NCBI RefSeq assembly: GCF_900182705.1
Contig: NZ_FXTP01000003.1
Span: 62,001 to 126,000, forward strand
From: Gracilimonas mengyeensis
GTDB lineage: Bacteria > Bacteroidota > Rhodothermia > Balneolales > Balneolaceae
DNA length: 64,000 bases
Direction: 5' to 3'
This document shows, piece after piece, positions 10,312 through 52,983 of this stretch; position 1 is the first letter of the stretch, and each line of letters opens with the position of its first letter. The notes beneath the pieces are model-generated. The model was given only the letters and a program-made list of their open reading frames with translations. It had not been told where the DNA came from and searched no databases. The translations under genes were made by a program, and so were the position numbers.

Positions 10312-12231
10312 TTAATTTGGAATAGCCTGAATACCTTTATAAGTAGGTTTCACTTGTAAGATTCTCTGCTTTTCATCAAACTTCAACGGATCTATGGCTA
10401 CCTCACGATGGAAGCCGGCTGCCCTGCCCATATTGATACCTTCCGGAACCGAAAAGCGATGATACACGATGTACCACTCATCTTTGCCCGGCACCTTAAT
10501 TACCGAATTGTGCCCGGTACCGTAAATACCTGGTTCAGGCTCAGGCTTCTTCGCGATAACAAGATTTTCTTCAGGAATCTGTAACGGCCCTAACGGACTA
10601 TCCGCCGTGGCATAGCGCACGCGATAATCAGGACTCCGGGTATCGTTTTCGCTCCACATAAAATAGTATTTCCCATTTCTGTAGAACACCTCCACTCCTT
10701 CGCGGAAGGTGTTATCAGGTGTCATCACTTGAATAGTCTCTTTTTTGAGGGAGATCATATCATCATTCAATTCTGCAACCGCCAAATAGCCATTGCCCCA
10801 ATACAAATAGGTTTTTCCGGTTTGCGGATCGGTAAATACATCCGGATCTATTTCCTGACCACCTTGCACGCCTTCAGGCTTGTAATCAATGAGCGGTTGA
10901 CCAGAATCTGTGAATGGACCGGTGGGTTCATCTGCTACCGCTACCCCAATTTGCTGAGCGGCCGTGAAGTAATAGAAGTATTTGTACTCGCCATCTATCT
11001 TCTTTTCCATAGCGGTGGGTGCCCAGGCATTTCTGTCGGTCCAACTTACGTCTTCTTTTAGGTTTAGAATGATGCCCTCATTTGTCCAGTTAACCAAGTC
11101 TTCCGAAGAAAATGTTTGAAAGTAATAGCCGCTCCAGCTATCAAAACCATCGCTGGTTGGGTACAGGTAATACTTTTCATCCTTATGCGAATAAAAGATT
11201 TCCGGATCGGCATAGTAGCCTTCCAGCACGGGATTATTATTTATTTCGGGAAGATCCCCGGGTGTACCCCATTCATTTAAAAGCCGCTTTAACTCACTAC
11301 GGGTAATGGGCAACACGGAACCATGACGCGGATGGAAATCCATGGATATCTCATGATCCACCACCTCAAAATTTCTTAAATCCGTTGTTTTGGTAAACTG
11401 ATAAGACCCTTGCATGTACACATCGTACATCAGAATATATTCATTGCTTTGATTCAGCTTAAACACCCCTGAACCTTCTACCGCTTCAGAAGTTTGCTGT
11501 TTGTAATCCGGGCTTTCCTCCCATTTACCGGAGGTTAAATCAGTGGTAGTGGCAAGCTTGATGCCATTGCCATGCCCCTCGGTTTTATAAAACAAATGGT
11601 ACACATCATCTTTTAAAACAATATCGCCGTCAATGCAGGATTTCCCATTGGAAGGGAAAAACAATTGTTTGGGCTCGCTTTCCAAACTTGTAAAGTCTTC
11701 ATTGGCATAGGCGTAGTAAATGATGTCCGACTCATCCCCATGCTTCATCGAGAAATAGATCATGTACTTGCCGGCTTCTTCGTCATAAATGGTTTGGGGC
11801 GCCCATACCCGCTTCAGGTCTTCATGGCCTTCAAAACGGTTTTGGATGTTTACTACGCTGGAAGTCCAGTTCACCAAATCCGGGGATTTCAGCAACACCA
11901 TGGCACGATTGGAGCTCCACCCCAAGTGCGAAGTCATATCAGTGACCACCATATAAAAGTTGCCATCTTTACCGCGGAGAATATGTGGATCGCGCACTCC
12001 GCCTGTAGAACTAATCTTTTTAGAATCGAGAACGGGCTGGTTGTCATTCAGGACATAAAAGTTGTAACCGTCCAGGCTCACCCCAAAATGGATGGCTTCT
12101 TCTTCCACGCTATTGCCGGTAAAATAGGCGAAGAGATAGGCTTCCAAATCTTTTTCAAGCGGTTGCGCGTTAAGCGTGTTGAATGCTAATAGTGTGAGTA
12201 CACCGGCTATGTAAATCTGGAGTCGGGTCAT
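10312..12231 (-). CDS. Secreted double GH43 enzyme (two complete five-bladed propellers)
   Basis: The start is ATG 12231, where MTRLQIYIAGVLTLLAFNTLNAQ gives a signal peptide; upstream in-frame codons add an unlikely leader. It encodes 639 aa with two GH43 domains. The first has a base Asp in GGVRDPHIL, a pKa-modulating Asp in CIDGDIVL and an acid Glu in AVEGSGVF. The second repeats the set: YYADPEIF, EIDPDVF and EGVEVFYRNG. Both therefore look catalytic. GH43 enzymes are mainly exo-acting alpha-L-arabinofuranosidases, beta-xylosidases or galactosidases; in this arabinogalactan block arabinose removal is the most likely task. It is the last gene of block 2, 160 bp after DUF4861. Subfamilies cannot be assigned by eye. 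Confidence 0.88.
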   Translation of the reverse strand: MTRLQIYIAGVLTLLAFNTLNAQPLEKDLEAYLFAYFTGNSVEEEAIHFGVSLDGYNFYVLNDNQPVLDSKKISSTGGVRDPHILRGKDGNFYMVVTDMTSHLGWSSNRAMVLLKSPDLVNWTSSVVNIQNRFEGHEDLKRVWAPQTIYDEEAGKYMIYFSMKHGDESDIIYYAYANEDFTSLESEPKQLFFPSNGKSCIDGDIVLKDDVYHLFYKTEGHGNGIKLATTTDLTSGKWEESPDYKQQTSEAVEGSGVFKLNQSNEYILMYDVYMQGSYQFTKTTDLRNFEVVDHEISMDFHPRHGSVLPITRSELKRLLNEWGTPGDLPEINNNPVLEGYYADPEIFYSHKDEKYYLYPTSDGFDSWSGYYFQTFSSEDLVNWTNEGIILNLKEDVSWTDRNAWAPTAMEKKIDGEYKYFYYFTAAQQIGVAVADEPTGPFTDSGQPLIDYKPEGVQGGQEIDPDVFTDPQTGKTYLYWGNGYLAVAELNDDMISLKKETIQVMTPDNTFREGVEVFYRNGKYYFMWSENDTRSPDYRVRYATADSPLGPLQIPEENLVIAKKPEPEPGIYGTGHNSVIKVPGKDEWYIVYHRFSVPEGINMGRAAGFHREVAIDPLKFDEKQRILQVKPTYKGIQAIPN

Positions 12232-12391
12232 GTCTTTCTTTCCACTCGTTTTTTGCAAACCTGAGGACTTCCGATATCCGTCAGATTCGGCCCTTATGAT
12301 GTAATTTTTTAATAGTAAATACTGTATCCAAAACACTTCCGGGGTTATCCTAAAGTGTTCAAATAATTTTTATGATCGCTGGTTTGTGGAT

Positions 12392-13417
12392 TTACTCCAA
12401 CTCGCCATCTTCTTCTAATTCCCTCAACAAATCACCTAAATAGTTTTCAAAAGCGGCCTGGTTAGTAATGCCGTTTGGTTCTTGCTCCCACGCTGCCAGG
12501 AAATAATAGCTTAACTTTTCTGCGGGATTGAATACCACCAGGTGATCGTCTTCGCCCGTGGTTACTTCACTAACTTCATCCAGTTTGTAGAAAACAGCCA
12601 TGCCCAGTTTATCCGTATCATTTACGAGGGTTTGGGCGCCGTAAGTCGCAATGTAGCCCCAATTGGAACCTTCGCTTTTCATCAGCGGCAGACCATGATC
12701 TACAATGCCGGTGCTAAATCCTTCAATGGGTTTGGAAAATGTAAACTCTGCTTTGGTATGCCGGCCTTCCGGGAAAATGCTCAATGTAGATTGCAGGTCT
12801 ACTTTGGTACCAGCGGTTTCCCATCCTTCATAATGAATATTTACCGAGGCTTTATCATCTGAATTTTCTATATCTACTGAAGTGTTTTCTACCTCATTAA
12901 AATGCAACACTTCTCCATCCACATATCGGCCAAACCCGCCAATACCCAGGGCATTTCCAACTTTGAGGATATCCATGCCCCAGCCGGCCATTTCGTGGTA
13001 CGAATCAAAGCCTTCTCTACCCACATACGGTAAAGCCAGCGTGTCCACTTTCTTACCAAAAATATCGATGGCATTTCGCCAGTCCAGGTATAAGCGGTAG
13101 CCAACCTGCTGGTTTTCCCAGCCCGGACCTTCATAGCGGATGTACCAGGTATGATCGGTATGCTCTTCCGGCACGGTCATGCTGTCTACATTCTTGAACG
13201 AGCCTCCTATATACTCTTTGTGCCCCCGATCCCCATCTTGCCATTCCCCTCCTTCTTTGATAGAAATTTCGGCATATGGCGCAGTGGTATCATCTCCTGG
13301 TTTGGACTCACCGGTCGTTTTCTTTTTCTCCGTACAGGAGGCAAAGGCTACCATCAAAGCAAGGATGCAGGTGAAAACCTTTAGTTTAGAAGTTGGGAAT
13401 GCTATACTCTTTCTCAT
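12392..13417 (-). CDS. DUF4861-like lipoprotein
   Basis: 341 aa starting at ATG 13417 (a TTG four codons earlier is in frame but less likely). The signal peptide ends in a lipobox (LMVAFASC). The rest is a beta-rich fold without a family that I can name with certainty. Motifs such as YEGPGWENQQVGYRLYLDWRN, DSYHEMAGWGMDILKVGNALGIGG and FSTGIVDHG recall Pfam DUF4861, whose members are encoded in pectin, ulvan and arabinogalactan loci of Bacteroidota. Conserved Tyr, His and Trp residues and a mutarotase/lyase-like look suggest a uronate-active enzyme, but this is inference. It starts 8 bp after the GH43_24 gene and is clearly co-transcribed. Confidence 0.65.
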   Translation of the reverse strand: MRKSIAFPTSKLKVFTCILALMVAFASCTEKKKTTGESKPGDDTTAPYAEISIKEGGEWQDGDRGHKEYIGGSFKNVDSMTVPEEHTDHTWYIRYEGPGWENQQVGYRLYLDWRNAIDIFGKKVDTLALPYVGREGFDSYHEMAGWGMDILKVGNALGIGGFGRYVDGEVLHFNEVENTSVDIENSDDKASVNIHYEGWETAGTKVDLQSTLSIFPEGRHTKAEFTFSKPIEGFSTGIVDHGLPLMKSEGSNWGYIATYGAQTLVNDTDKLGMAVFYKLDEVSEVTTGEDDHLVVFNPAEKLSYYFLAAWEQEPNGITNQAAFENYLGDLLRELEEDGELE

Positions 13418-13425
13418 TTTTACCG

Positions 13426-15492
13426 TCAATTTTTGGGTTGATAGATTTTTCCGACCTTCAGCTTGTCGCCTGATATATCCACTTCAAAATAGTGGGGATA
13501 GCGGATGTACCTCCCGTTTACACTTTTATGACTATGGGCTACCATCAGCAGCTTGCCTTCCAGGGTTCGGAACAGCATACCATGGCCAAAGTTGGGAGGA
13601 GTGATGGGCTCTTCTTCCTGAACCCAGGGGCCGTCGATAGTGCCGCTTTCAGAGTAGGCTACTCCCTGCGTGTACACATCGTGTACCCAGCTGGTCCAAA
13701 TCATGCCAAGCCGGCCGGTTTCTGTACGGAACAGGTATGGTCCATCGGTCACTTTACTTGGGCCGGCACTTCCGTCTTCATATTCTTCTTCGCTCCAGGG
13801 AGAGTCCTTGGCGCGGAACAAGATTTCACGTCCGCCCACTGTACCGCTTAAATCAGGCTTCAGTTCAATTTTTTCCATCGTACCGTTCCAGTTCTGGAGC
13901 CATTCATGGCAAAAAATCATATAGGGTTTTCCATCCTCACCAACCCAAAAAGTACCGTCTAAAGTGGGTTCATCGGCTGGTAAATAGGTAGGATCTTCCA
14001 TCGGCACATAAGGACCACCGGGTTTATCGCTTACCAGCACGTGACTGGCACGGCGATCAATCGCATTGCCCCTGACCGTATCAATTTGCACATCCCGGTT
14101 CGTGAAGGTGGCGAAGTAGTAGTACTTGCCTTTATACTGATGCAATTCTGCCGCCCAAATCATGGGATTAAGTCCCATCCAGGAACTGGGGTCGGTCATA
14201 GCTACTTCGTAGGGTCCATCCCAAAATTTCAGATCTTTGCTTTCCCAAAGTAAACCGCCGGTGCCCGTCATATAATAGGTTTCCGTTTCGGAATCAGCTA
14301 AAATGCTCGGATCGCTCAATATGATGGAATCCAGGGGGACATCTTGCCGTATTGGAAATCTTCTCCTCTCAAAGAAATCCAGGCTCCATTCATCCCGCCA
14401 TCGTATCACCGGCTGGCCGTTTACTACTTCGATAGGCAGCCAAATATATCGGCCGTCGATATGGTTCTCCGGTTTCCAGCGGTCGGCCATAAAAATAAAG
14501 GCGTCCTCTTTACCCTGAACCGGGAGCACAAAAGTGCTTTGGGAATGGAACGTAACATCCGAGTCTTTCCCGATTGCCGGGTTGTTAAGCTCTTCCCAAG
14601 GACCCCAAATAGATTTTGCCCTGAATGATCGGGCCGCATTCGGGTCCCAGCCGGTGGCCCCTGAAGCAATCAGGTAATACCATCCGTCTTTTTGAAAGAT
14701 CGCCGGAGCTTCATTATGGCCTCCGGGTTTTACTCGTATATATTTTCCGGTGAAATCCAGATAGTCGTCCGTTAATTCGGAGATGTGTAGGGTGAGATTG
14801 TCTTCGGCAGAATGAATGTGATAGGCGGTTCCGTCCTCATCCACAAAAAGGGTCATATCGCGCGACATCTGCCCTTTTTCAAAATCTCTTCGTACAAACA
14901 GGCCTTCTTCAATGGCTTCATGCCATTCGGGCGTCCACCACTCAAGAGTGTCTTCACCGGGCTTGGGCGATTTCCATGCTTCTTCAAAATTCACCGGCCA
15001 CTGTTTGGCATTCGGGCGAAATGATTTCTGGTACTCGAAAGGTCCCGTCGGGCTATCACTTACAGCCAATCCCGTACGGGCGGCACTGTAGCCCTGGTCC
15101 TTCAACTCCAGGTGAAACCACATCACATATTGTTCGGTACTTTCATTGTAGATCACTTTAGGGCGCTCCATCACGCTGCCAGCCGTGATTTCAGAATCCG
15201 GATCCTCACTTACGGAGAGGGCCACGCCTTCCTTTTTCCAATTGTACAAATCATTTGAAGAATACACATTGATGCCCACATGGGCCTTGCTGGTTTTGCC
15301 CTTATGCTCTCCATACCAGTAGTACACGCCATCGTGGTACAAAATGCCGCCGCCATGGGCATTGATATGCACCCCGTCCGTATCTTCCCAAATTTCTCCG
15401 GGTTGAAAAGAGGTATGGTGTTGCGCCTGGGCCACCATCGGCGGCCCAAACACAACAGTGAACAGAAATAAGCAAAGGATTGCTTTTCTCAT
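13426..15492 (-). CDS. Secreted GH43_24 exo-beta-1,3-galactanase fused to a second GH43 domain
   Basis: 688 aa, signal peptide 1-24. The N-terminal domain has INAHGGGILYHDGVYYWYGEH (residues 43-63), the signature of subfamily GH43_24, whose characterised members release galactose or beta-1,6-branched units from the beta-1,3-galactan backbone of arabinogalactan. Expected active-site residues are present: E109 in MERPK, acid E261 in GHNEAPA and Q318 in FHSQSTF, the Gln that replaces the usual Asp base in this subfamily. Residues about 160-205 are an unusual Trp- and acid-rich insertion. A second GH43 domain follows from about residue 390 (IILSDPSILADSET, WAAELHQYKGKYY, EPTLDGTFWVGEDG). The gene is 6 bp after the beta-glucuronidase gene, which fits stepwise backbone stripping. 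Confidence 0.9.
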   Translation of the reverse strand: MRKAILCLFLFTVVFGPPMVAQAQHHTSFQPGEIWEDTDGVHINAHGGGILYHDGVYYWYGEHKGKTSKAHVGINVYSSNDLYNWKKEGVALSVSEDPDSEITAGSVMERPKVIYNESTEQYVMWFHLELKDQGYSAARTGLAVSDSPTGPFEYQKSFRPNAKQWPVNFEEAWKSPKPGEDTLEWWTPEWHEAIEEGLFVRRDFEKGQMSRDMTLFVDEDGTAYHIHSAEDNLTLHISELTDDYLDFTGKYIRVKPGGHNEAPAIFQKDGWYYLIASGATGWDPNAARSFRAKSIWGPWEELNNPAIGKDSDVTFHSQSTFVLPVQGKEDAFIFMADRWKPENHIDGRYIWLPIEVVNGQPVIRWRDEWSLDFFERRRFPIRQDVPLDSIILSDPSILADSETETYYMTGTGGLLWESKDLKFWDGPYEVAMTDPSSWMGLNPMIWAAELHQYKGKYYYFATFTNRDVQIDTVRGNAIDRRASHVLVSDKPGGPYVPMEDPTYLPADEPTLDGTFWVGEDGKPYMIFCHEWLQNWNGTMEKIELKPDLSGTVGGREILFRAKDSPWSEEEYEDGSAGPSKVTDGPYLFRTETGRLGMIWTSWVHDVYTQGVAYSESGTIDGPWVQEEEPITPPNFGHGMLFRTLEGKLLMVAHSHKSVNGRYIRYPHYFEVDISGDKLKVGKIYQPKN

Positions 15493-15498
15493 GGCAGG

Positions 15499-17352
15499 TC
15501 ACCTGGCTTTTTCCTGTTGTTCTTTTAATTCTTTGTAATAAGCCTGCAGTACATAGAAGGCTTTCTTCTTTTCACCATTGTTACCAATCAGGCCTTTCCG
15601 GTTCCATCCATCCTGGTATTCGGGATGATTGCGGCGTGGAGAGCGAAAGTCCGTCAAAATCCAGGGTGAAAGTCCGGTGAAGTTGTCCGGGAAACGATTC
15701 TTAAACATATCTACTTGCTCCTCATAGTACCATTCCTGGTACTCTTCACTGAAACGGGTTAGCTTATCGGCATGAAAGCCTGGCTGGGCGCCCGCACCGG
15801 TTTCACTAATAAAAAATGGTTTGTCATATTTGGTTTCCCATTGGGCTGTGCGACAGGCATCGGGAAGTCCGCCGTACCAGCCGAGGTATTCATTCAGGGA
15901 AACGATATCGGTGTATTCACCCAATGGATCATCCACATAGTTTTTACCCTCGTTGTAACCAACCTCAAGAGCCGCCGACACTAAGCGGGTGTCGTCCATA
16001 CGCTTGGTATCTTTTACCAGCGTGCTCATGAAGTCGGTTCGCGTTTCACTAACAGGAGTTTCATTACCAACCGACCAAATGATGACCGAGGCCCGGTTGC
16101 GGTCCCGGGATACCATTTCTTTCAGTTGAGCCTGCGCTTTATCCAGCACTTCGGGATTCTCAAAATCGATAGTCCAGTACACAGGAATCTCAGTCCAAAC
16201 CAGTATACCTAAAGAGTCAGCCAGGCGCGGCATATATTCATTGTGTGGATAATGCGCCAGGCGTACCATGTTGGCATTGAGATCTTCCACCCATTCGTAG
16301 AGTTGAGCGGCATCATCACGGCTGTTGGCACGGCGCATCTCCGGAGCAATTTCTTCATGGATACTGATGCCCCTCAAAAAGACCTTCTCGCCATTCAACA
16401 GGATATCATCGCCCTGCACTTCCACTTTGCGGAAACCAATTTTATCGATGATTGTATGGCCGTCAAAACTGACCTTTACTTCATAAAGTTTCGGGTTTGA
16501 TGTGGTCCACAGCTCCATGTTTTCCGCCTCAAAGTTAACCGCCACCGAATCGCCGGAAATAGCAAGAGCTTCTTCGAGTCCCAGTTCAGGGATTTCAATG
16601 ATAGCATTGCCGGAAGCAGACTTGTTCATCTTCAGCCAGCCTGTGATTTGATAGCTATCATTTTCTAAAGCAGCTTTAATATCCTGTTGCTGATCCAATT
16701 GGATATGATATTGCTGTACAAATTGCTGTGGGGTAATCACCAGCTTCACATCCCGGGTAATACCGCCAAAATTCCACCAATCGGTGTTTACTGTGGGGAT
16801 TTCTTCGGGGTGGCGTTTGTTATCTACCTTCACCACCAGGTTGTTGTCTTTTGCTTTCAAAAGTCCCGATGGAATCTCAAAATTGAAGGGCGTAAATCCA
16901 CCTTTATGCATACCCAGCTTTTTGCCGTTCAGATACACATGCGCTTCGTAGTTGATGGCCCCAAAATAGAGGTGAGCCACTTCATCTTCGGCCATTGCAG
17001 GTTTATCAAAATACCGTTGATACCACACCGTCCCCTCATAATAGAGGAACACACGGTCCTGCGAATTCCAGTCACCAGGCACTTCAATGCTGTATTCATC
17101 ACTGTAGCCGTGTTCGATTAAATCAGACTTTTCTGGGTTTTCGTTAATATTCCAGTAGGCTCCGCCGTCGTTTTCGTTTCGCTCTCCATACCGGTAGTTA
17201 TAAAATCCTGTTTCATAGGGATCTATAATGTAGTGCCAGTCCCCGTTTAGCGACACGGCATTGCGGCCCTGCGTGTTGATAATCAGGTTATCCTGGGCAA
17301 AAAGTGGCTGCATCAGGGCAAGCATGAATAGTATTGAAAGAAGTCTTCTCAT
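15499..17352 (-). CDS. Secreted GH2 beta-glucuronidase-type enzyme
   Basis: 617 aa with signal peptide (ending QPLFAQ). Domain order is the GH2 sugar-binding jelly roll (ISLNG-type start, EGTVWYQRYF, DWWNFGGITRDVKL), an Ig-like domain and the TIM barrel. Catalytic residues are E431 in WSVGNE (acid/base) and E517 in FISETGAG (nucleophile). W583-N584-R585-K586-G587 gives the NxKG motif, which in beta-glucuronidases binds the carboxylate and separates them from beta-galactosidases. The likely job is removing terminal beta-GlcA (or 4-O-methyl-GlcA) from arabinogalactan side chains. It lies between the LacZ-type gene and the exo-galactanase. Confidence 0.88.
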   Translation of the reverse strand: MRRLLSILFMLALMQPLFAQDNLIINTQGRNAVSLNGDWHYIIDPYETGFYNYRYGERNENDGGAYWNINENPEKSDLIEHGYSDEYSIEVPGDWNSQDRVFLYYEGTVWYQRYFDKPAMAEDEVAHLYFGAINYEAHVYLNGKKLGMHKGGFTPFNFEIPSGLLKAKDNNLVVKVDNKRHPEEIPTVNTDWWNFGGITRDVKLVITPQQFVQQYHIQLDQQQDIKAALENDSYQITGWLKMNKSASGNAIIEIPELGLEEALAISGDSVAVNFEAENMELWTTSNPKLYEVKVSFDGHTIIDKIGFRKVEVQGDDILLNGEKVFLRGISIHEEIAPEMRRANSRDDAAQLYEWVEDLNANMVRLAHYPHNEYMPRLADSLGILVWTEIPVYWTIDFENPEVLDKAQAQLKEMVSRDRNRASVIIWSVGNETPVSETRTDFMSTLVKDTKRMDDTRLVSAALEVGYNEGKNYVDDPLGEYTDIVSLNEYLGWYGGLPDACRTAQWETKYDKPFFISETGAGAQPGFHADKLTRFSEEYQEWYYEEQVDMFKNRFPDNFTGLSPWILTDFRSPRRNHPEYQDGWNRKGLIGNNGEKKKAFYVLQAYYKELKEQQEKAR

Positions 17353-17404: not shown

Positions 17405-20527
<3,123 letters not shown>

Positions 20528-20738: not shown

Positions 20739-21956
20739 TTACTTTTTGGAGTCTTTATATCGCATCATGGCTTCCACGAAATAGTAATCGCCGTAGGTCA
20801 ACGGCACGTCTACTTCACTGTTGCCGGGCAAACTGCCTACGCCATGCTTTAGCAGGAAGCCGCCATTCTCGCCTTCTTCAGCCAGGTACTTAGGAGTCAG
20901 CAAACTGGAGAGCATATCTACTGCATTTTCATAATAGTACTCTGCTTTTTCGCCCTCTGATAACGTACTTAACTCAAATAAAGCCGAGGCGATGATCGCC
21001 CCCGCAGAAGCATCACGGTAGGTATCAGGAATATTCGGGGCATTAAAATCCCAGTATGGAATTTTGTCTTCCGGTAAATTGGGGTGACTCAGAACAAAGT
21101 CTGCAATATTTTGTGCTTGCTCCAGGTATTTCTCATCGCCTGTTTCGCGGTAGGTCATTACGTACCCGTACAAACCCCAGGCTTGTCCGCGGGCCCAGGC
21201 CGACTCATCCGCTGCCCCCTGGTTGGTAATGCGAGCTTTCACAGAGCCATCATTTTCTTTATAAATCACTTCGTGATAAGAGCTGTAGTCAGGGCGGAAA
21301 TGATTTTCCATGGTGGTATTCGCATGGTTTACGGCAATGTCGTAATAAGTGCTGTCCCCGCTGTGCTCCGTAGCCCAAAACAGTAATTCCAGGTTCATCA
21401 TGTTATCGATGATCACCACTAAGTCACCTTCTTCTCCCTTGTTCCAGGAGGCGTTATCCCAAGACCGGATCGCTTTTACCGTATCCTGGTAACGGGTAGC
21501 CAGCGACTTTGCGCTGTTCATCAGGATCTCTTCATACTGCTCATTCTCCTGCTGACGGTTGGCATTCCCAAAGCTGCAATACATCATAAATCCAAGATCA
21601 TGGGTAGAAGTATTGTACTGTTCTTTTTTGAGATCTTTCATGACTTCCATGGCGCGCTTTCTCAGATGTGGAGCATCAATGGCTTCATCCAAATACAACA
21701 AGGTTCCGGGATAGAAGCCACTACACCACCAGCCCGAGCCGCTGGTTTCCAGCTCATCCCTTTCATCGTAATAGGTTTTGGGATATTCGCCCGGCTCAAT
21801 TTGGCTGCCCAAATATTCGTACTGTTTAGCGGCCAGCTCCAGGGTGCTATCAATGGTTGAAATGGATGGTGATGAATCTTGTTGGGTCGCTGATTCGCTA
21901 TTGCACCCTACAAAAACACTAAGGGTAAATAAAAAAAGTAGAAGTTTAATTTTCAT
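20739..21956 (-). CDS. GH88 unsaturated glucuronyl hydrolase, lipoprotein
   Basis: 405 aa with a lipoprotein signal (LSVFVGC, Cys18). It is an (alpha/alpha)6-barrel: WWCSGFYPGTLLYL, then D120 in STHDLGFMMY and D184 in VVIIDNMMNLELLFWA. These match the two catalytic Asp residues of GH88 (positions 88 and 149 in the Bacillus enzyme). Also present are RITNQGAADESAWARGQAWGLYGY and the C-terminal PLTYGDYYFVEAMMRY. GH88 enzymes remove 4,5-unsaturated uronic acids by hydrating the double bond, so an upstream polysaccharide lyase is expected; the BNR_4 protein encoded 45 bp upstream is the obvious candidate. Confidence 0.93.
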   Translation of the reverse strand: MKIKLLLFLFTLSVFVGCNSESATQQDSSPSISTIDSTLELAAKQYEYLGSQIEPGEYPKTYYDERDELETSGSGWWCSGFYPGTLLYLDEAIDAPHLRKRAMEVMKDLKKEQYNTSTHDLGFMMYCSFGNANRQQENEQYEEILMNSAKSLATRYQDTVKAIRSWDNASWNKGEEGDLVVIIDNMMNLELLFWATEHSGDSTYYDIAVNHANTTMENHFRPDYSSYHEVIYKENDGSVKARITNQGAADESAWARGQAWGLYGYVMTYRETGDEKYLEQAQNIADFVLSHPNLPEDKIPYWDFNAPNIPDTYRDASAGAIIASALFELSTLSEGEKAEYYYENAVDMLSSLLTPKYLAEEGENGGFLLKHGVGSLPGNSEVDVPLTYGDYYFVEAMMRYKDSKK

Positions 21957-22001: not shown

Positions 22002-23330
22002 TTAATTTCTGTTTTCAAACAGTTGCTGAAGATTTTCTATTTCGATGACCTGAACCGGCTTCGGGGCTACTTCTGCCACGCCTTCTCCATCCACTTGCTC
22101 TACTTTTTGTGAGAAGATGTGCAGTTCCCGTTTCGTATTCCATAATTCCACATCATAATTCGGTTCCCATTGTCCCACGCCCTGCTCCGTTACATCTTTC
22201 AAGGTCCACTTCTTTTTATCTAAAGAGGCGCCCGCTACAGTAATTTTACTGTCTCTTTCTTCATCCCGGAACAGTAAATACACATAATTTTCGTCCATCA
22301 AAATTTCGGGACGGGAAATCGGGATGCGTTTGGTGCCACCTCCACTCAGTGAAAAGGTACTTTCCCGGAATCCTGTATCCATCAGTTTCCATCGGCCCTC
22401 TTCCAGGTAGATGATCTTAAATTGTGGTTTACTGCCGGCATTCCAATAGGTGGTGATGTACGGATTACCGTTTTCATCTACCGTCATGGCGGTTTGATTG
22501 ATAAGCTCGCTGTTTTCAGGTATTTCCCAGGCTAGCTCAGCCGCGGTTTCCGTGATGGGGAGATCGTATGCTTCGCCGTTGGATTTCTTCCAGCTTCGGC
22601 CGCCATCGCTTGATACGGCATAGGCCATGTCATGATTGGAGGCCACGTCCCAGGTTTCGCGCCATACCCACGAAAGATGTAGATCACCGTTTTCTGCAAC
22701 ATGCATCTGCCAGTAAGCACTGCGCTGTTCTTCCCCGTCCAGCAAATTGTTTTGGAGCTGAATCCATTGTTCGGTGTCAGGATTGTATTCATTTAAAACC
22801 ATATTGCCCCTTCCCGATTCTCCAGAGCGATAGCTGAACAAGAGCTTTTCATTGGGTAGATTAAAAAACTGTGGGTACGTCACTCTTTCTTCCTGCAAGC
22901 CGGTCATTGAAAGCTCCTGAGAAAGCTCAAGTCCGAATGGCTCGGTGCTTTTTACATAACGCAAAGGGGTATTATGCTGATCCCAGCTTACGTGTAAAAA
23001 CCCGTCACTATCAACCGCCAGGCTGATGCTGTTATGGGCATCTTCCACATTTCCGGAATATCTGCTGATGTGCGTTTTCCAATTTTGATCGCCTAACTCA
23101 CGCTTCGCCAAAACCATGCGCCCTTCGGCATCATAATAAGCGGCAAATTGCACATCTTGGTACGTGGTGAGCGCTTTTCCGCGAAAAATAACGGCGTTCA
23201 CTGAGTTATTGGCCCAGCCTTGACCAATGGCCGTTGTCTTGATTATTTGCTCTTCGGAGCAACCAGCTATGAGGCCTGCTAACAGGAATAAAAAAAGTGA
23301 AATGATATGTGATCTTAACGCTAAACTCAC
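22002..23330 (-). CDS. BNR_4 seven-bladed propeller lipoprotein, likely rhamnose-glucuronate lyase or rhamnosidase (PL27/GH145-like)
   Basis: 442 aa from a GTG start at 23330 that overlaps the preceding stop by 4 bases (GTGA), so translation is coupled. Lipobox LIAGC with Cys24. The sequence has the BNR_4 pattern EDAHNSISLAVDSDGFLHVSWDQHN (H99, H119) and repeated Asp-box-like strands (SSDGGRSW). This fold covers PL24, PL25 and PL27 lyases and GH145 alpha-L-rhamnosidases. PL27 and GH145 act on L-Rha-alpha-1,4-GlcA caps of gum arabic-type arabinogalactan. With a GH88 next door, a lyase that leaves an unsaturated GlcA is favoured, but the two activities cannot be separated by eye. Confidence 0.78.
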   Translation of the reverse strand: MSLALRSHIISLFLFLLAGLIAGCSEEQIIKTTAIGQGWANNSVNAVIFRGKALTTYQDVQFAAYYDAEGRMVLAKRELGDQNWKTHISRYSGNVEDAHNSISLAVDSDGFLHVSWDQHNTPLRYVKSTEPFGLELSQELSMTGLQEERVTYPQFFNLPNEKLLFSYRSGESGRGNMVLNEYNPDTEQWIQLQNNLLDGEEQRSAYWQMHVAENGDLHLSWVWRETWDVASNHDMAYAVSSDGGRSWKKSNGEAYDLPITETAAELAWEIPENSELINQTAMTVDENGNPYITTYWNAGSKPQFKIIYLEEGRWKLMDTGFRESTFSLSGGGTKRIPISRPEILMDENYVYLLFRDEERDSKITVAGASLDKKKWTLKDVTEQGVGQWEPNYDVELWNTKRELHIFSQKVEQVDGEGVAEVAPKPVQVIEIENLQQLFENRN

Positions 23331-25294
23331 TGTACTGTCTTTCTTTTGATGGTTACTTCTTTAGCAAAATAACTGGTGCCCTCCAATCCTTCAGCATCTC
23401 CCGAAGAACCTTCCATCTGCAAGTTAATGATAAGCCACAATGGTTTATTGGTGAAATTGGTGTAATGCACAACGGTTTGTTTACCATCAATAAAATAGGT
23501 GATGCTCGCATGTTCCTCATCCAAACGCTTGATCCGTGCCGAATAGCTGTGCCATGTACCCGCTGCATCCGGGATGGATTCTTTAATAGTCGTTACATTT
23601 TGCGGGGTGATAAACGTATTCTGCCAGTTGATGTCATCTCCTTTGAATTCCAGAATATCACTTTCCGGCGGCCAGCCATCCACTGCGGTGAGCCAAAAAG
23701 CAGGCCAGGTTCCGGGGGCTGTCGGGGCTTTGAAAACACCTGATACTTCATATTCAGGGTATTCTTCCGTTATGACAATTTGATGCTTGGCATGAATCGC
23801 ACCGGAAGCATATTTAAGGGGCAGGTTTGGATGCTTACTGCTTGCCTTTTGCTCTTCTTCAAAACGTTCGGCTTTCAGCTCCAGCATATTATCCTGCACA
23901 ATAATGTTCTTCTCAAACATCCGTGCCGTGCCATTATGGTCATCTCCCCATGGATAGAATAGGTTCCAGTGCTTTTTGAGAGACTGGGCATCACTAAATG
24001 AAGTAGCGGGTAACACAACCTCCCAATCCTCTTCCTGAGGACGCCGGTTTGGGTAATAGGCATGATCGATGGGGGCTTCTTTGCCACCCCAAATTTGCTT
24101 TTGGGTCCAGTCTTTGGCCGGGGCAGACCAGAATGGCGTTTGCCCAGGCAAACCCAGCACTAAAAAGGCGGTACTACTCAGGTATAGGCTTCCGGTAGAA
24201 ATGTATCGTTCAGCAATGTCTTTTTGAGGGCCATAAAAACCGATGGTGAGCCACCCGTTTTCATCAAAAGTTCCGGGTACTTCCATTTGTTTTTTGATGA
24301 CAGCATGCAGGGCTCCCCGTACCTGGGCTGGATCGAGCTCATCCGGTAATTGCTGCATTAGTGCTATTTGGGACAACGCCTGAAAAGCGCCCACGCGGTA
24401 CGCCAGCGAGCGACCAATCGGCGGATAGGTTCCCTCCGGTGAGATCAATCGTTCCTGAACAGCGGCGTACCGTTGGGCCCGTTCCAGGAATACATGAGCG
24501 TTATCAATGAATTTGTAGCGATAGCGCCAGTGCCTTAATTCCGATTTCTTGTCTTCCAACACCGAAAGGATATCCAAAATCATGGGCTGGATGACATAGC
24601 TGTTGTAATAGTCCCAGTGAAAATCGGGGCCATCACCGTAGGTACCGTCGCCTACATACCACTCATCGTGTTTAAACAACGCATATTCCATGCGCACCAT
24701 GTCAGGTTCACCGTCAAATTTCAATAAAGCCGCTTCAATCATCCCACTAAATAACAACCAGTTCATATAAGGTGGGGAGGTCGCTCGTGTTTTTCTGAAT
24801 TCCCTGAGCATCCGCTCTTGTGTGGTTTTATCCAAATTGCCCCACAACTGTTTGGGTGCCCGAATGAGCGCTTCTGCGAGAAATGCTGCATCTACAAGAG
24901 GCTGACCTTCGCCGGAAAAATTCAGGTAATCATTAGCCTCGGGATTAACGGCATTTGCGAGACCTTTTACTGCAAGGTCTATATATTTTTTCCGAAGTTG
25001 GCCTTCTTCGGTGTCATCAGGACCCAGCTCAAGCCACGGGGCCATACCGGCCAGTGTTCGTCCAACGGCTTCTAAGTGGGTTACGTCTTCTCTGCCGCCG
25101 TATGGGTTGTTTGCCTTTTCTACAGGCATATTCTTTTTTAGCTGATCATTAGCCAGGTTTGTCAATACAGGATCGGCAATATCAACCAGCATGTTTACAT
25201 AGTATTCCCTCTGTCCCAGTTCTTTTTGCTGAGACATGCCCATCAAGGGCCACATCAATAATAAAATCAGTAAAACAGGAATAGCGCGATTCAT
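23327..25294 (-). CDS. GH154 (DUF2264) - GH16 fusion: putative beta-glucuronidase plus endo-beta-1,3-galactanase
   Basis: 655 aa, signal peptide 1-21. Residues about 25-415 look like DUF2264, now CAZy GH154 (exo-beta-glucuronidases active on arabinogalactan): VTHLEAVGRTLAGMAPWLEL, FSGEGQPLVDAAFLAEAL, DGPDFHWDYYNSYVIQPMIL and YPPIGRSLAYR. Residues about 425-655 look like a GH16 jelly roll: YASGAIHAKHQ, YEVSGVFKAP, TWPAFWLTAVDGWPPESDILEFKG and WHSYSARI. The GH16 catalytic pattern ExDxxE is met by E544, D546 and E549. GH16 includes the endo-beta-1,3-galactanases found in arabinogalactan loci. The two domains join near residue 420 with no frameshift sign. The gene is the first enzyme after SusD2 and overlaps the BNR_4 gene by 4 bases. 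Confidence 0.82.
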   Translation of the reverse strand: MNRAIPVLLILLLMWPLMGMSQQKELGQREYYVNMLVDIADPVLTNLANDQLKKNMPVEKANNPYGGREDVTHLEAVGRTLAGMAPWLELGPDDTEEGQLRKKYIDLAVKGLANAVNPEANDYLNFSGEGQPLVDAAFLAEALIRAPKQLWGNLDKTTQERMLREFRKTRATSPPYMNWLLFSGMIEAALLKFDGEPDMVRMEYALFKHDEWYVGDGTYGDGPDFHWDYYNSYVIQPMILDILSVLEDKKSELRHWRYRYKFIDNAHVFLERAQRYAAVQERLISPEGTYPPIGRSLAYRVGAFQALSQIALMQQLPDELDPAQVRGALHAVIKKQMEVPGTFDENGWLTIGFYGPQKDIAERYISTGSLYLSSTAFLVLGLPGQTPFWSAPAKDWTQKQIWGGKEAPIDHAYYPNRRPQEEDWEVVLPATSFSDAQSLKKHWNLFYPWGDDHNGTARMFEKNIIVQDNMLELKAERFEEEQKASSKHPNLPLKYASGAIHAKHQIVITEEYPEYEVSGVFKAPTAPGTWPAFWLTAVDGWPPESDILEFKGDDINWQNTFITPQNVTTIKESIPDAAGTWHSYSARIKRLDEEHASITYFIDGKQTVVHYTNFTNKPLWLIINLQMEGSSGDAEGLEGTSYFAKEVTIKRKTVQ

Positions 25295-25555: not shown

Positions 25556-27169
25556 TTAATAACCTGGGTTTTGTGTCAATTCCGCTTCGGTATTAAGCTG
25601 AATTTCAGAAATCGGAATGGGCCACAACTTGTTAGCATCTCTAAGGCCTTCTATGGTTGAATTTTCTGGAGCGCCATAATTGTAGGCATCCGTAGCACGA
25701 TCTAAGAGCTTGTCGGTTCTCATGAGCTCCATGCGGCGATTTTCTTCGGCAAGAAGTTCCCGTGCGCGTTCATCAAGAACAAAGTCCAGATCCATTTCAG
25801 CGGCTGTAACCAGAGGGGCATTCGCTCTTTCTCTCAGCACGTTGATGGAGGCAGCTGCACCAGCCATATCCCCTTGCTGAACCTGAGCTTCTGCTTTAAG
25901 CAGATAGGTTTCTCCCAATCGCATCAGGATAAAATCCTTCCACATCCCCCATCCAAAAGTATCTCTTGGATCGAAATGTTTCCATTTCATGGTGTATGGT
26001 GTCAGGATGAACAAGGTATCCGCACCTTCATAAGGAACCGGCTGTCCATATAGCTCACTGCTTGGATCGTTGTACCAGTGCTGGCGGTGAATGTTGAATC
26101 GGGAGTTACGCATGTCCCCTTCATCATATAGATTATACAATACCCAGTTGTTCAGGCGCAAACGGGCAATACCACGGCCCCCCAAAGAATCGGCAGGCAT
26201 CAACCCATTGCGGCTGTGATAAGAGCCGCCCCAAACACGTCGCTGTTGCGGTGCACCAGTTGATCCGCCACGAACATCGGAAGGGTTTTCCATTTCCAGC
26301 ACCCAAATAGCTTCACTATTACCTTGGGAGTGACGCATGTTTCCTTTCCAAAACATATCGGAGAAAGGATCGCCAGGTTGGTCGGCTTTAACTCCATAAC
26401 GTGCGTTCACTAAGGTGAAGTTGGGATTGTTAATTACGCGGTCAGCTTGTGCTTCAGCTTCCGCATATTTACCCACTCGCAGGTAATGTTTTGCCAACAA
26501 CTGGCTAGCGGCTGCATTACTTACTCTTTGCTCGTCTTCAGTTTGGCCGAAATCGGGAAGATTTTGAACGGCATACTGTAAGTCTTCTTCAATAAGTGCA
26601 TTCACTTCACTCAAAGGAGCCCGTGTGAAATCAAACTTGGGCTCAGCAATGGGATCCGTTACTATGGGCACCGGACCAAATAGTGTGGCCAGTTCTTCGT
26701 AAGCTTTTGCTCTGAAGAAACGGGCTTCTGCATTATATGCAGCCAGCCTCTCTTCGGTCATGCCCTCAATAGCCATGCCTTTGCTTTCAATGTTATTGAT
26801 CGCATTATTGGCATTTTCAATGATGTCGTATTCCCATCTCCACATCCACCATGTTGCGTGAACATCCGGAGTAAGGGTATTGTATCTGAAAAAGGGAATT
26901 TCAACGCCCTGATACTGAACAGGCCAGGCTATGTCGGTCCCCACGTTCCATAGGGCAGGCCATCCCTGTTGGTCAGATTTAGAATAGAAGTTACTGGTTG
27001 CCTCATACATCAGTATGAGGGTTGCCCGGAGGCTTTCCCGATCGTTTATGTCGGTAGAATACTGGTCTTCAACCTTTTCGTTTAGGAAGCTGTCGCTACA
27101 GGAAGAGATGACCAGAAGAAATAAAACCGAAACTGCTGTAATATATCTTAGTTGGTGTTTCATAGTCAT
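25556..27169 (-). CDS. SusD-family glycan-binding lipoprotein (SusD2)
   Basis: 537 aa. ATG at 27169, with a second ATG two codons later equally possible. The lipoprotein signal ends in LVISSC. SusD features: SDSFLNEKVEDQYSTDIND, a TPR-like core (RFFRAKAYEELATLFGPVPIVTDP, SQLLAKHYLRVGKYAEAEAQ), DFILMRLGETYLLKAEAQ and the ending WPIPISEIQLNTEAELTQNPGY. It sits 12 bp after SusC2 and is its partner. By context it binds arabinogalactan side-chain oligosaccharides. Confidence 0.95.
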   Translation of the reverse strand: MTMKHQLRYITAVSVLFLLVISSCSDSFLNEKVEDQYSTDINDRESLRATLILMYEATSNFYSKSDQQGWPALWNVGTDIAWPVQYQGVEIPFFRYNTLTPDVHATWWMWRWEYDIIENANNAINNIESKGMAIEGMTEERLAAYNAEARFFRAKAYEELATLFGPVPIVTDPIAEPKFDFTRAPLSEVNALIEEDLQYAVQNLPDFGQTEDEQRVSNAAASQLLAKHYLRVGKYAEAEAQADRVINNPNFTLVNARYGVKADQPGDPFSDMFWKGNMRHSQGNSEAIWVLEMENPSDVRGGSTGAPQQRRVWGGSYHSRNGLMPADSLGGRGIARLRLNNWVLYNLYDEGDMRNSRFNIHRQHWYNDPSSELYGQPVPYEGADTLFILTPYTMKWKHFDPRDTFGWGMWKDFILMRLGETYLLKAEAQVQQGDMAGAAASINVLRERANAPLVTAAEMDLDFVLDERARELLAEENRRMELMRTDKLLDRATDAYNYGAPENSTIEGLRDANKLWPIPISEIQLNTEAELTQNPGY

Positions 27170-27181
27170 AAATTTTTTGTG

Positions 27182-30154
27182 TTATAGTGAAATATTCAGT
27201 CCTAAAGAAAGGGTGCGTACCAACGGGTAGTTGTTGCCCCAATCTCCTGATCCTCTTGAATACTGATTACTTTCTGGATCCCATCCTTCCCAATCAGTAA
27301 AGGTGTACAAGTTCCGGCCCGCAAAGTATACGGTCAGATCTCTGATGTTATACCTTTGCACCAATGATTGCGGAACCCTGTAGCTCAGGCGAACATCTTT
27401 AATTCGCAAATAACTGGCATCTTGTGGATGTCCGTAGCCTCTGTTGTTTTCATAGGCTACTAAGGAAGGCCATTTATTACTTTGATTCTCAGGAGTCCAA
27501 TAGCCTACATCAGCAGGAATATTTCGGCGACCTACTTCGTCGGTGTAGTACACATCGGAATTGTTTCTTAGTATTCCTTGTGCTGTTTCTAAAAATACAT
27601 TCAGCGTAAAGTTTTTATAGTAGAATGTATTGGTGAAACCACCGGTCCATTTTGGCAAAGAACTGCCCAGGATTTTACGGTCGTTTTCAGAATCAATCTG
27701 TCCGTCTCCATTCAAGTCGGCAAACTTTACATCTCCCGCTCTCGCATTGGGGTCATGATTCAAGTGTTCACCGGCATCAATTTCATCTTCCTGCCAGATA
27801 CCCAACTTTTGGTAGTCATAAACTACGTTTAAAGATTGACCAATAAACCATCTGTTCGGGATATCGTCTTCGTTATCACCATACAATTTCAAAATCTCAT
27901 TCTTGTAAGTAGAGAATACGATCGTAGATTCCCATCTAAAATCCCCCGTGTTAAGGTTCTCGGTATTCAAAGTGATATCGATACCCTGATTACCTACCTC
28001 TCCAATATTATCAAGGATGCTACCAGAACCGGTAATATTGGGAATATTTCTTGCAAGAATCAGATCCGTGGTTTTGCTGTCATATACTTCTATAGAACCT
28101 CTAAGCCGGTTTCTGTACAATCCAAAGTCCACACCCAGGTTAGCTGTAGTAGTAGATTCCCACTGCAGGTTGGGGTTACCCATACCAGCTATGTAGGTAC
28201 CAATTTGAGCTGAACCACTGAATGGGTATAAGACTGTACCAGCCGTACTTTTAGTTCCATATACATCAATAGCAGGGTTACCGGTCGTTCCATAAGAGAA
28301 TCTCAACTTCAGATCATTCACCTGAAGCACATCTTCCATGAAGCTCTCATTGGCAATATTCCAACCCAAAGCTACAGAAGGAAATACCCCATACTTGGTG
28401 GTTTCCGAACCAAATACAGAAGCACCGTCTCTACGAGCTGTTACTGAAAGCAGATAACGGCTATCGTAGTTGTAGTTCACCCGACCCATTTGTGAGAGCC
28501 AGGTCTGTTCGTTCTTGTCAGAGTCTCCTTCAATGTTATCGGCTGATCCTACCTGGTGATAGGATAAAGCATCACTAAAAAAGCCGATTCCTCGTATCCA
28601 GGAATTCTGATAGATTTGCTTCTCTGCACTATATAAAGCGGTAAGGTCAAAATGATGCTTATCAATGTCCTTGGTGTAGGTAACAATATTTTCGAGTACC
28701 CAACGGTTTCTTTCTGAATTGTATTTGTAGGCCGTACCGTTATTATCATTGGCCGCACGACCAGAATAGGTGGCATTGTATCGCGGATTGCGATAATAAG
28801 AACCGTTGATTCTATACTGCAAGCCTTCAATACCTGGCTGAACAATAGCATAGGCCGTTCCAGAAAGGTTTTGCACATGATCTACCCGGTCAGTGGTTAG
28901 TCCAAGCATAGGATTTACAAACAATTGTTCCGGCGCCATTGGATAAATGATATAATCGCCATTCTCATCAGTTGGCACTGAATAGGGACTCATTGCCGTG
29001 GCAAATAAGAAATTGGCGCGTCCACCGTCATAGTTATTATTAGCATAATTTGCATTGGCTCCCGTTGTCAACCAGTCAGTTACTTCCAGGTCCAGCTTAG
29101 CTCTTAAATTGAGCCGGTTATACTGGTATCCCTTAATCACACCTTTTTGATCCAAATAGCCACCAGAAAGGAAATATCTTGCTTTTTCCGTACCACCAGA
29201 AAGACTTACATTATGCTCAGCAATCAAACCGGTACGGGTAGCCGTATCCATCCAGTCATTAGTGATACCGGCATTATAATTTTCAATTTCTGCGGTATTA
29301 GGCAGTATGTTTGTCTGCTCCAATCCTCTTTGCTCCATGTAATCCGCATATTTTTGTACATAGGCATCGGGACTCATAGGCTCCAACATATGAGAAAAGT
29401 CTTCCCAACCGTAGGACACACTATAACTTACTTCAGGCTTTCCTGCCTGACCTTGTTTTGTAGTGATAAGCACAACCCCGTTTGAACCACGATTACCATA
29501 AATGGCCGTCGCAGAGGCATCTTTAAGCACCTCTATAGATTCAATATCCCGGGTATTAATATCATTTAGGCTACCATAGAATGGCGTACCATCTACAACG
29601 ATAAAAGCGCTATTGTCGGCTTCAATTGAATTAAGCCCTCTCACCTGAACACCTGCTACCGCACCCGGAACAGACGACCTTGTTGTAATGTTTAGGCCTG
29701 CCGTGGTGCCCTGTATCGCCTGGGTTACGTTGGTAACAGGCAAGTTTTCTAAACGACCTTTGGGCACTGAAGAAACCGCACCGGTAACATCCGAGCGCTT
29801 CTGGGTACCGTACCCAATCACTACCAGCTCTTCTCCCGAAAGTGTTTGGGGAGATAAAACCACATTGATTAGCTCCCGGCCATTAATAGGTATTTCCTGC
29901 CGTTCAAAACCAAGAAAAGAGAATACTAGTGTGTCTTGGAGTGAAGGGACCGTTAATTCAAAAAATCCCTCAATATCTGTTGTAGTTCCCACACTGGTGG
30001 TACCCTTAACAAATATATTCACCCCGGGTAATGGTTCTTCCGTATCAGCTTCCGTTACTGTACCTGACACTTGAGTTTGTGCATTTGCCATTCCTACCAG
30101 GAGTAGCATCAGTACAGATGTACACAAAAACTTATAAAGTAACTTTTGTATCAT
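27182..30154 (-). CDS. SusC-family TonB-dependent oligosaccharide transporter (SusC2)
   Basis: About 990 aa. The start is ATG 30154 (MIQKLLYKFLC), which has a strong GAGGAG ribosome binding site at 30161-30166; an earlier in-frame ATG at 30178 lacks one. Signal peptide ends ANAQ. Then a carboxypeptidase-regulatory-like domain (TQVSGTVTEADTEEPLPGVNIFVKG), GEELVVIGYGTQKRSDVTGAVSS, plug with ARG-LNS elements (QVRGLNSIEADNSAFIVVDG) and SIEVLKDASATAIYGNRGSNGVVLITTK, and the barrel ending VRTLSLGLNISL. It heads the arabinogalactan block and shares its promoter architecture with SusC1. Confidence 0.96.
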   Translation of the reverse strand: MIQKLLYKFLCTSVLMLLLVGMANAQTQVSGTVTEADTEEPLPGVNIFVKGTTSVGTTTDIEGFFELTVPSLQDTLVFSFLGFERQEIPINGRELINVVLSPQTLSGEELVVIGYGTQKRSDVTGAVSSVPKGRLENLPVTNVTQAIQGTTAGLNITTRSSVPGAVAGVQVRGLNSIEADNSAFIVVDGTPFYGSLNDINTRDIESIEVLKDASATAIYGNRGSNGVVLITTKQGQAGKPEVSYSVSYGWEDFSHMLEPMSPDAYVQKYADYMEQRGLEQTNILPNTAEIENYNAGITNDWMDTATRTGLIAEHNVSLSGGTEKARYFLSGGYLDQKGVIKGYQYNRLNLRAKLDLEVTDWLTTGANANYANNNYDGGRANFLFATAMSPYSVPTDENGDYIIYPMAPEQLFVNPMLGLTTDRVDHVQNLSGTAYAIVQPGIEGLQYRINGSYYRNPRYNATYSGRAANDNNGTAYKYNSERNRWVLENIVTYTKDIDKHHFDLTALYSAEKQIYQNSWIRGIGFFSDALSYHQVGSADNIEGDSDKNEQTWLSQMGRVNYNYDSRYLLSVTARRDGASVFGSETTKYGVFPSVALGWNIANESFMEDVLQVNDLKLRFSYGTTGNPAIDVYGTKSTAGTVLYPFSGSAQIGTYIAGMGNPNLQWESTTTANLGVDFGLYRNRLRGSIEVYDSKTTDLILARNIPNITGSGSILDNIGEVGNQGIDITLNTENLNTGDFRWESTIVFSTYKNEILKLYGDNEDDIPNRWFIGQSLNVVYDYQKLGIWQEDEIDAGEHLNHDPNARAGDVKFADLNGDGQIDSENDRKILGSSLPKWTGGFTNTFYYKNFTLNVFLETAQGILRNNSDVYYTDEVGRRNIPADVGYWTPENQSNKWPSLVAYENNRGYGHPQDASYLRIKDVRLSYRVPQSLVQRYNIRDLTVYFAGRNLYTFTDWEGWDPESNQYSRGSGDWGNNYPLVRTLSLGLNISL

Positions 30155-30160
30155 ATTTTG

Positions 30161-30166
30161 CTCCTC
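30161..30166 (-). promoter_or_regulatory. Ribosome binding site that fixes the SusC2 start
   Basis: GAGGAG on the minus strand, 6 nt before ATG 30154. It supports the shorter SusC2 start over ATG 30178. Confidence 0.75.
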
Positions 30167-30221
30167 GTTATAAGACATTTAATAATTGATAAGGTTAACT
30201 TTAAATGCCTTTATTTTCCGT

Positions 30222-52239: not shown

Positions 52240-52983
52240 TCATTCTATCTTCAGCAGAACCGTATCAGAACCGCGTATTCCTTCCGATGAGGTATAACTG
52301 GCCGTTACCACATAAGCCCCTGGCTTTGCAGCCTTCTCAGGCTGATTGATAATCTCAAAAACTCCCTCTACCCCTGGGTACACCCAGCAGTAATTACATG
52401 CTCCCTGCTCCAGGATATATTCTACGATCTCTGTAATTTCCTCTTCAGTGTAATCGGGCGTAGGCGGCATTTGCACCTCACCCCACGTTCCGGATGAGCC
52501 TTCACTGATACTGCTTATCAATTCTTCCTTGCTTCTCTCCTGTTTTTCATGAGCATTCGCTATATCGGCAAATGAGGGCCCCACCATGCTCTTTTTATCG
52601 GCATGGCAGCCAAAACACGTACTTTGGGCTATCAGCGCTGCACCTTTGGGAAATTTATTGGCAAGCCTTACTCCAACAGGTATGGCACCGGGAGTTAACA
52701 CTTCTGGCACGTAGCGAAGATTCAACAGCACCCTGGTTGTTTCTATCTCCCCGTATCTTGAACTGCCGTCTGTGGCATCGTTCACTTCTATGGAGTAGCG
52801 TATTTGCTGGCCCCATGAAGCATGCTGATCTTTTGCAGAAAGCGTGAGTTCCACTTCAGGCCCTGTGTTTTCTTCAGCAGCATCAAAACGGGAGCTATTG
52901 AGCTCTTTAAGCAAGTATTCACCCTGCTGCGAGCTAAACAATATTGCTAAAGTTGTGATGAGCGTAAGTATCAAGCTTTTCAT
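52240..52983 (-). CDS. Periplasmic cytochrome c with flanking beta-sandwich segments
   Basis: 247 aa with a signal peptide (about 1-19). Residues 42-95 are a PKD-like beta-segment. The class I cytochrome domain (about 105-192) has C123-F-G-C126-H127 as heme site, PSFADIANAH, and M172 in EVQMPPTP as axial ligand. A further C196xxC199 lacks a His. This resembles the PKD-plus-cytochrome tail of large ThuA/PQQ-type sugar dehydrogenases, here as a separate protein. It lies 18 bp after the FAD oxidoreductase, so it is probably that enzyme's electron acceptor. Confidence 0.85.
   Translation of the reverse strand: MKSLILTLITTLAILFSSQQGEYLLKELNSSRFDAAEENTGPEVELTLSAKDQHASWGQQIRYSIEVNDATDGSSRYGEIETTRVLLNLRYVPEVLTPGAIPVGVRLANKFPKGAALIAQSTCFGCHADKKSMVGPSFADIANAHEKQERSKEELISSISEGSSGTWGEVQMPPTPDYTEEEITEIVEYILEQGACNYCWVYPGVEGVFEIINQPEKAAKPGAYVVTASYTSSEGIRGSDTVLLKIE

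Follow-up and report, generated by a model that had tools for sequence, protein, structure and literature searches.

The closest described relatives of the N half of the enzyme analyzed here belong to the former GH154 family, which has been reassigned from glucuronidase to beta-D-glucuronate 4,5-dehydratase (PMC12269599, 2025). In that study, clean preparations of BcGDH displayed no glycosidase activity and gave a product detected at 232 nm, with loss of water confirmed by mass spectrometry, and BT_3677, the founding GH154 enzyme, exhibited dehydratase activity in an absorbance assay. In BcGDH, the vicinity of the glycosidic bond lacks an acid/nucleophile pair. The proposed mechanism employs Y229 as the base and Y289 as the acid, with R285 assisting, and the residues whose replacement with Ala left no detectable activity include these three as well as E74, R78, N176, N177, W178, F181, and Y354. 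The same authors dispute the presence of a hydrolase active site across the former GH154 family. As for other enzymes relevant to the locus, GH145 enzymes harbor a lyase site on their anterior face and, in some cases, a rhamnosidase site centered on His48 on their posterior face (PMC8406133, PMC8377490), and FvEn3GAL is a GH16 endo-beta-1,3-galactanase (PMC4052742).

We examined a stretch of 64,000 nucleotides from Gracilimonas mengyeensis (contig NZ_FXTP01000003.1, positions 62,001 to 126,000), referred to here as the window. One of its genes (23327..25294, reverse strand) encodes a fusion of a dehydratase-family domain and a GH16 domain. The open reading frame runs from an ATG at 25294 to 23327 without stop codons and encodes 655 residues, comprising a signal peptide (residues 1 to approximately 22), the dehydratase domain (residues 28 to 396 or 412), a linker (approximately 402 to 421), and the GH16 domain (approximately 425 to 652). 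By inspection, the signal peptide is visible and lacks a lipobox. In Pfam searches, DUF2264 (PF10022) matched residues 28 to 396 (24107..25213, reverse strand) with an E value of 2.5e-119 over profile positions 1 to 353 of 353, and Glyco_hydro_16 (PF00722) matched residues 497 to 613 with an E value of 8e-5. The score of the latter is marginal, with 22.6 bits against a cutoff of 22 in the protein search, and 25.2 in the genome search. In a sequence search against the PDB, the N half matched 8oi4, 9o4u, and 9nwf, and the matches of the C half to GH16 enzymes were weak. In an AlphaFold2 model of the full-length protein, based on an alignment of 14 sequences, a helical domain was connected to a beta-sandwich by a linker with little order (402 to 421). 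When this model was searched with Foldseek, 8oi4 and BcGDH (9nwf/9o4u) ranked first through the N half (TMt 0.88 to 0.92), and GH16 laminarinases and lichenases came next through the C half (E values down to 4e-12). With both domains recognized by Pfam and both folds by AlphaFold2 and Foldseek, our results confirm the proposal of the first-pass annotation that one exported chain joins a GH154-like domain to a GH16-like domain, and show that the GH16 domain is complete. The limits proposed for the two halves, 25 to 415 and 420 to 655, were correct to within a few residues.

The N domain is 46% identical to BcGDH and 48% identical to 8oi4, with superposition over the full domain, and Foldseek matched it to the helical-barrel fold of 9o4u/8oi4. 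Nine of the ten active-site residues of BcGDH that were mutated in PMC12269599, including the three proposed to be catalytic, are identical in the window protein: E74, R78, N177, W178, F181, Y229, R285, Y289, and Y354 of BcGDH correspond to E75, R79, N178, W179, F182, Y230, R295, Y299, and Y364. These nine residues were also kept in the other fusions checked. N176 is replaced by M177, and this position is occupied by Met, Ser, or Thr in the other fusions, indicating that it is not a constant of the family. The degree of identity to BcGDH together with the active-site residues suggests that the N half is a dehydratase. The first-pass annotation had assigned it as a beta-glucuronidase, a view now superseded, as both BcGDH and BT_3677 are dehydratases (PMC12269599) and the catalytic residues are conserved in the window protein. 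A true beta-glucuronidase, hydrolyzing terminal glucuronate while the GH16 half cuts the galactan backbone, would agree with the earlier reports of BT3677 as an exo-beta-1,6-glucuronidase and of BD-beta-Gal as a galactosidase (both as cited in PMC12269599). We regard this as quite improbable, considering the lack of hydrolase activity in BcGDH, the absence of an acid/nucleophile pair, and the dehydratase activity of BT_3677 (PMC12269599). Furthermore, neither the colocation with GH88 genes described below nor the GH105 fusion found in Flavobacterium sp. strain Sd200 would serve much purpose for a hydrolase. In this second fusion (L027:15040-17388), a GH88/GH105 domain (residues 42 to 382) and a DUF2264 dehydratase domain (residues 392 to 755) are present on one chain. 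Joining a dehydratase to an unsaturated-uronyl hydrolase makes the best sense if the product of the dehydratase is an unsaturated uronate, and the fusion thus provides independent support for dehydratase function. The same locus also harbors a standalone copy of the GH16 domain, along with GH2 and GH43 genes.

The GH16 domain of the window protein (approximately residues 425 to 655; 23330..24022, reverse strand) contains the sequence ESDILE once, at residues 544 to 549, where the first-pass annotation had placed it. This matches the GH16 catalytic motif E-x-D-x(1,2)-E, and the triad E544, D546, and E549 is kept, with E544 presumably the nucleophile and E549 the acid/base following GH16 convention. 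Both the triad and the surrounding stretch, WPPE-x-DILEFKGD, are invariant in 13 aligned sequences, which include secreted standalone copies. Modeled alone with AlphaFold2 (pLDDT 85.5, pTM 0.84), the domain adopted a beta-jelly-roll that VIA-align superposed on dozens of GH16 structures with Z scores of approximately 22 and rmsd values of approximately 2.3 to 3.0 A over approximately 200 to 215 residues. This answers affirmatively whether the C half has the GH16 fold. Thus, the Pfam score only just supports the assignment to GH16, but the modeled structure supports it firmly. The GH16 rows from VIA-align were all tied at Z scores of 20 to 22, singling out no specificity. All solved GH16 structures are no more than distant relatives of the domain, the best profile match among them scoring 39 bits. 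The nearest by both profile and fold are glucanases (laminarinases and lichenases) of low identity, and no endo-beta-1,3-galactanase was recognized among the solved-structure matches. The low Pfam score and the wide divergence from characterized GH16 enzymes would be consistent with a domain that is now a noncatalytic carbohydrate-binding module holding the dehydratase on its substrate. The invariance of the triad and its surroundings in an alignment including secreted standalone copies, which could only be enzymes or lectins, leaves this a very small probability. L044 and L046 contain standalone GH16 domains of this type that form a more distant branch, with TVTG replacing TFITP after EFKG, and the copy in L044 adjoins a GH43 gene.

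The genes surrounding the fusion in the window were identified by Pfam and further profile or PDB sequence matches, and those with coordinates below are on the reverse strand. A seven-bladed propeller of the GH145/PL42 type (22002..23330), recognized by BNR_4 and by matches to 5mum, 5mvh, and 5muk with E values of approximately 1e-132 or better, overlaps the fusion gene by 4 nucleotides at its start. Its nearest matches are GH145 enzymes, among them BT3686 and BACCELL_00856. The anterior residues H90, H110, Y143, and R333 of BT3686 are kept as H99, H119, Y152, and R340, and the posterior His48 is absent, with Y57 in its place. From these residues, a lyase rather than a hydrolase is expected, one that would cleave Rha-alpha-1,4-GlcA by elimination, taking off the rhamnose and rendering the uronate unsaturated. 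The propeller is followed by a GH88 unsaturated glucuronyl hydrolase (20739..21956), aligned with 3wiw and 1vd5. Equivalents of both catalytic residues of UGL, Asp88 and Asp149, are kept, within the stretches HDLGF (HDIGF in 1vd5) and IIDNMMNL (IIDCLLNL in 1vd5). Further along are a GH2 LacZ-type beta-galactosidase (17405..20476; NCBIfam NF052611 over its cutoff), a second GH2 enzyme resembling beta-glucuronidases/galactosidases (15499..17352), and a two-domain GH43 protein (13426..15492) whose N half matches the exo-beta-1,3-galactanases 6eug, 7bys, and 3vsf (GH43_24-like) and whose C half is GH43-like. The same operon includes a DUF4861 (BT_3233-like) gene at 12392-13429 that overlaps the GH43 gene by 4 nucleotides. 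A two-domain GH32N/GH43 protein (10312..12336), part of the same operon type, has orthologs in L023, L024, and L030. Upstream of the fusion lies a glycan uptake pair (25556..30178) of SusD (25556-27169) and SusC (27182-30178), and SusC/SusD orthologs are found directly upstream of the fusion in L023, L025, L026, and L030. GH35 and GH53 genes and further SusC/SusD pairs are present elsewhere in the window, and a KduI-family gene for the released keto-uronate is found in the same genome. Near GatZ/KbaZ-like and GH31 genes, two ORFs of approximately 500 residues (45894-47420 and 50692-52206) had no Pfam or NCBIfam match at an E value of 0.001.

Together, the GH145/PL42, GH88, GH2, GH43 (exo-beta-1,3-galactanase-like), GH35, GH53, and SusC/SusD genes make up the repertoire that would be expected of a locus for type II arabinogalactan. 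The gene context thus agrees with the arabinogalactan setting put forward in the first-pass annotation, and the locus probably functions in the utilization of this polysaccharide. An ulvan locus was also considered, as BNR_4 is common to ulvan lyases and dehydratases occur in ulvan degradation, but is less likely, with PDB ulvan lyases matching the propeller at E values of only approximately 1e-7 to 1e-1. No sulfatase was found among the window ORFs scanned, a set that excludes those at 52240-52983, 57691-58656, and 60243-63284.

When two peptides of the GH16 domain were sought as exact matches in approximately 85,000 genomes, a procedure that undercounts, eight other fusions came to light, two each in Galbibacter and Flavobacterium and four in Sinomicrobium, as well as four standalone secreted GH16 copies. 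A profile search of a sample of one family detected the GH16 domain in 7 of 397 genomes and revealed another fusion, in Robertkochia, which the peptide scan had missed. In total, ten fusions, the window copy and nine others, were identified. Robertkochia solimangrovi harbors its fusion (L047) and a separate, lipoprotein-like standalone GH16 copy (L032) at different loci. A GH145/PL42 propeller lies directly after the fusion gene in nine of the ten loci, including the window, and a GH88-family gene follows the fusion in all eight loci that extend far enough. The exception is L022, in which a GH88 gene is upstream and no propeller of the GH145/PL42 type is present in the stretch read. GH2 and GH43 galactan/arabinan enzymes are found in several of the fusion loci. 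With nine other fusions in several genera and a recurrent gene order, the fusion is not a chance joining. Among the eight propellers checked, the posterior His is kept in only three, all from Sinomicrobium. The residues at this position are Y, F, L, H, H, H, D, and Y, and the anterior lyase residues never change, so that these propellers form a ready-made set for probing the two-site model.

In a phylogenetic tree, the dehydratase halves of the ten fusions form one group (93/93), within which the window copy groups with those of Galbibacter and Robertkochia (100/99). The GH16 tree did not discriminate between a single gain of the GH16 part and several. The fusion is absent from nine congeners of the window genome, which is the only carrier among 245 genomes of its class, and only the window's among 22 DUF2264 matches in a sample of the phylum has this GH16 domain. 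Because the 244 other genomes of the class lack the fusion, the simplest reading is that the window copy was probably acquired horizontally from Flavobacteriaceae-like bacteria.

In our view, the protein probably serves a type II arabinogalactan locus as an exported enzyme with two activities, dehydration by the N half and galactan cutting by the GH16 half, with release of the uronate by the GH88 enzyme. The N half, judging from its close relative, would dehydrate terminal glucuronate to the 4,5-unsaturated uronate, which the downstream GH88 enzyme would then free. Acting on Rha-alpha-1,4-GlcA caps, the propeller would directly generate the same kind of end, and glucuronates with and without a cap would therefore yield one product. 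The decapping envisaged in the first-pass annotation would thus be a two-step process, with the fusion producing the unsaturated uronate and the enzyme encoded two genes downstream removing it. The GH16 domain would be a retaining endo-glycanase, most likely acting on beta-1,3-galactan, or oligogalactan, bearing side chains. As the type I signal peptide has no lipobox, the enzyme is probably periplasmic, and in this case the GH16 half would act on imported fragments rather than initiate degradation at the surface. In loci of this kind, endo enzymes normally reside on the surface of the cell, which counts against this explanation, as do M177 at the N176 site, the report of 8oi4 as a beta-galactosidase, the distance of the GH16 domain from all solved GH16 structures, and the glucanase nature of the nearest of these.

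Substrates across the GH16 family include a wide range of glucans and galactans. An alternative is that, alongside an active dehydratase half, the GH16 half cuts some other beta-linked chain, such as beta-1,3-glucan or a sulfated or marine galactan, as might be expected from its closest solved structures, the laminarinases and lichenases, and from relatives in marine Flavobacteriia. This seems rather unlikely, as each of the ten fusion copies includes a glucuronate dehydratase, nine adjoin a GH145/PL42 enzyme, and several loci encode the GH2 and GH43 enzymes mentioned above. As GH16 endo-beta-1,3-galactanases exist (FvEn3GAL, PMC4052742), cleavage of the arabinogalactan backbone by the GH16 half is reasonable, and we favor it as plausible, although it is the genomic context and not the sequence that points to galactan. 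A broader proposal can be made more tentatively, with somewhat less than an even chance of being correct: the fusion is a conserved, horizontally spreading chain coupling uronate dehydration to endo-cleavage of the arabinogalactan backbone, it forms with the lyase and GH88 enzyme a conserved cassette that removes all glucuronate caps, with or without rhamnose, via unsaturated intermediates, and its GH16 domain founds an uncharacterized galactanase subfamily.

The dehydratase-GH16 combination seems to be undescribed. We found no paper describing this architecture, a literature search for DUF2264 returned nothing, and papers naming both GH154 and GH16 were, judging from their titles and abstracts, genome surveys or unrelated work. 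The first-pass annotation likewise knew of no description of the architecture, but the fusion itself is found in at least nine other sequenced genomes. It is a new combination of known families, already present at low frequency in several sequenced Bacteroidota genera. Our results would carry the recent redefinition of GH154 as a dehydratase rather than a glucuronidase family over to the arabinogalactan pathway of environmental bacteria, where annotations as "GH154 beta-glucuronidase" would be misleading. The fusion also offers a compact, directly testable enzyme and an uncharacterized branch of GH16.

Among known systems, BcGDH from Bacteroides caccae resembles the N half in fold, in domain identity, and in nine of the ten residues probed, and its locus also harbors GH88, but it is a stand-alone enzyme of a chondroitin locus and has no GH16 domain. 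BD-beta-Gal (8oi4, former GH154) has the same fold and similar identity, but is likewise stand-alone and has been reported as a galactosidase. The arabinogalactan locus of Bacteroides thetaiotaomicron, which includes BT_3677, BT3686, and BT3683, shares the set of a former GH154 enzyme, a GH145 enzyme, and an exo-beta-1,3-galactanase. BT_3677 differs in representing a distant branch (22% identical to BcGDH according to PMC12269599) and in its second domain. In ulvan degradation by Formosa agariphila (PMC8511951), P29_PDnc with GH105 follows the same logic, in that a terminal uronate is dehydrated and then removed by an unsaturated-uronyl hydrolase. P29_PDnc is unrelated in sequence to the former GH154 enzymes (PMC12269599), and its family was rejected for the N half on these grounds. 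Endo-beta-1,3-galactanases such as FvEn3GAL share the proposed reaction and, in this case, the GH16 family, but the literature consulted does not describe them as fused to a dehydratase. In the GH105-DUF2264 protein of Flavobacterium sp. strain Sd200, a dehydratase is likewise fused to an enzyme of the same pathway, but the partner is a uronyl hydrolase, not GH16, and the dehydratase is of a different lineage. Two different partners have thus been fused to the dehydratase in evolution, the type of hydrolase that acts downstream of it and a GH16 glycanase.
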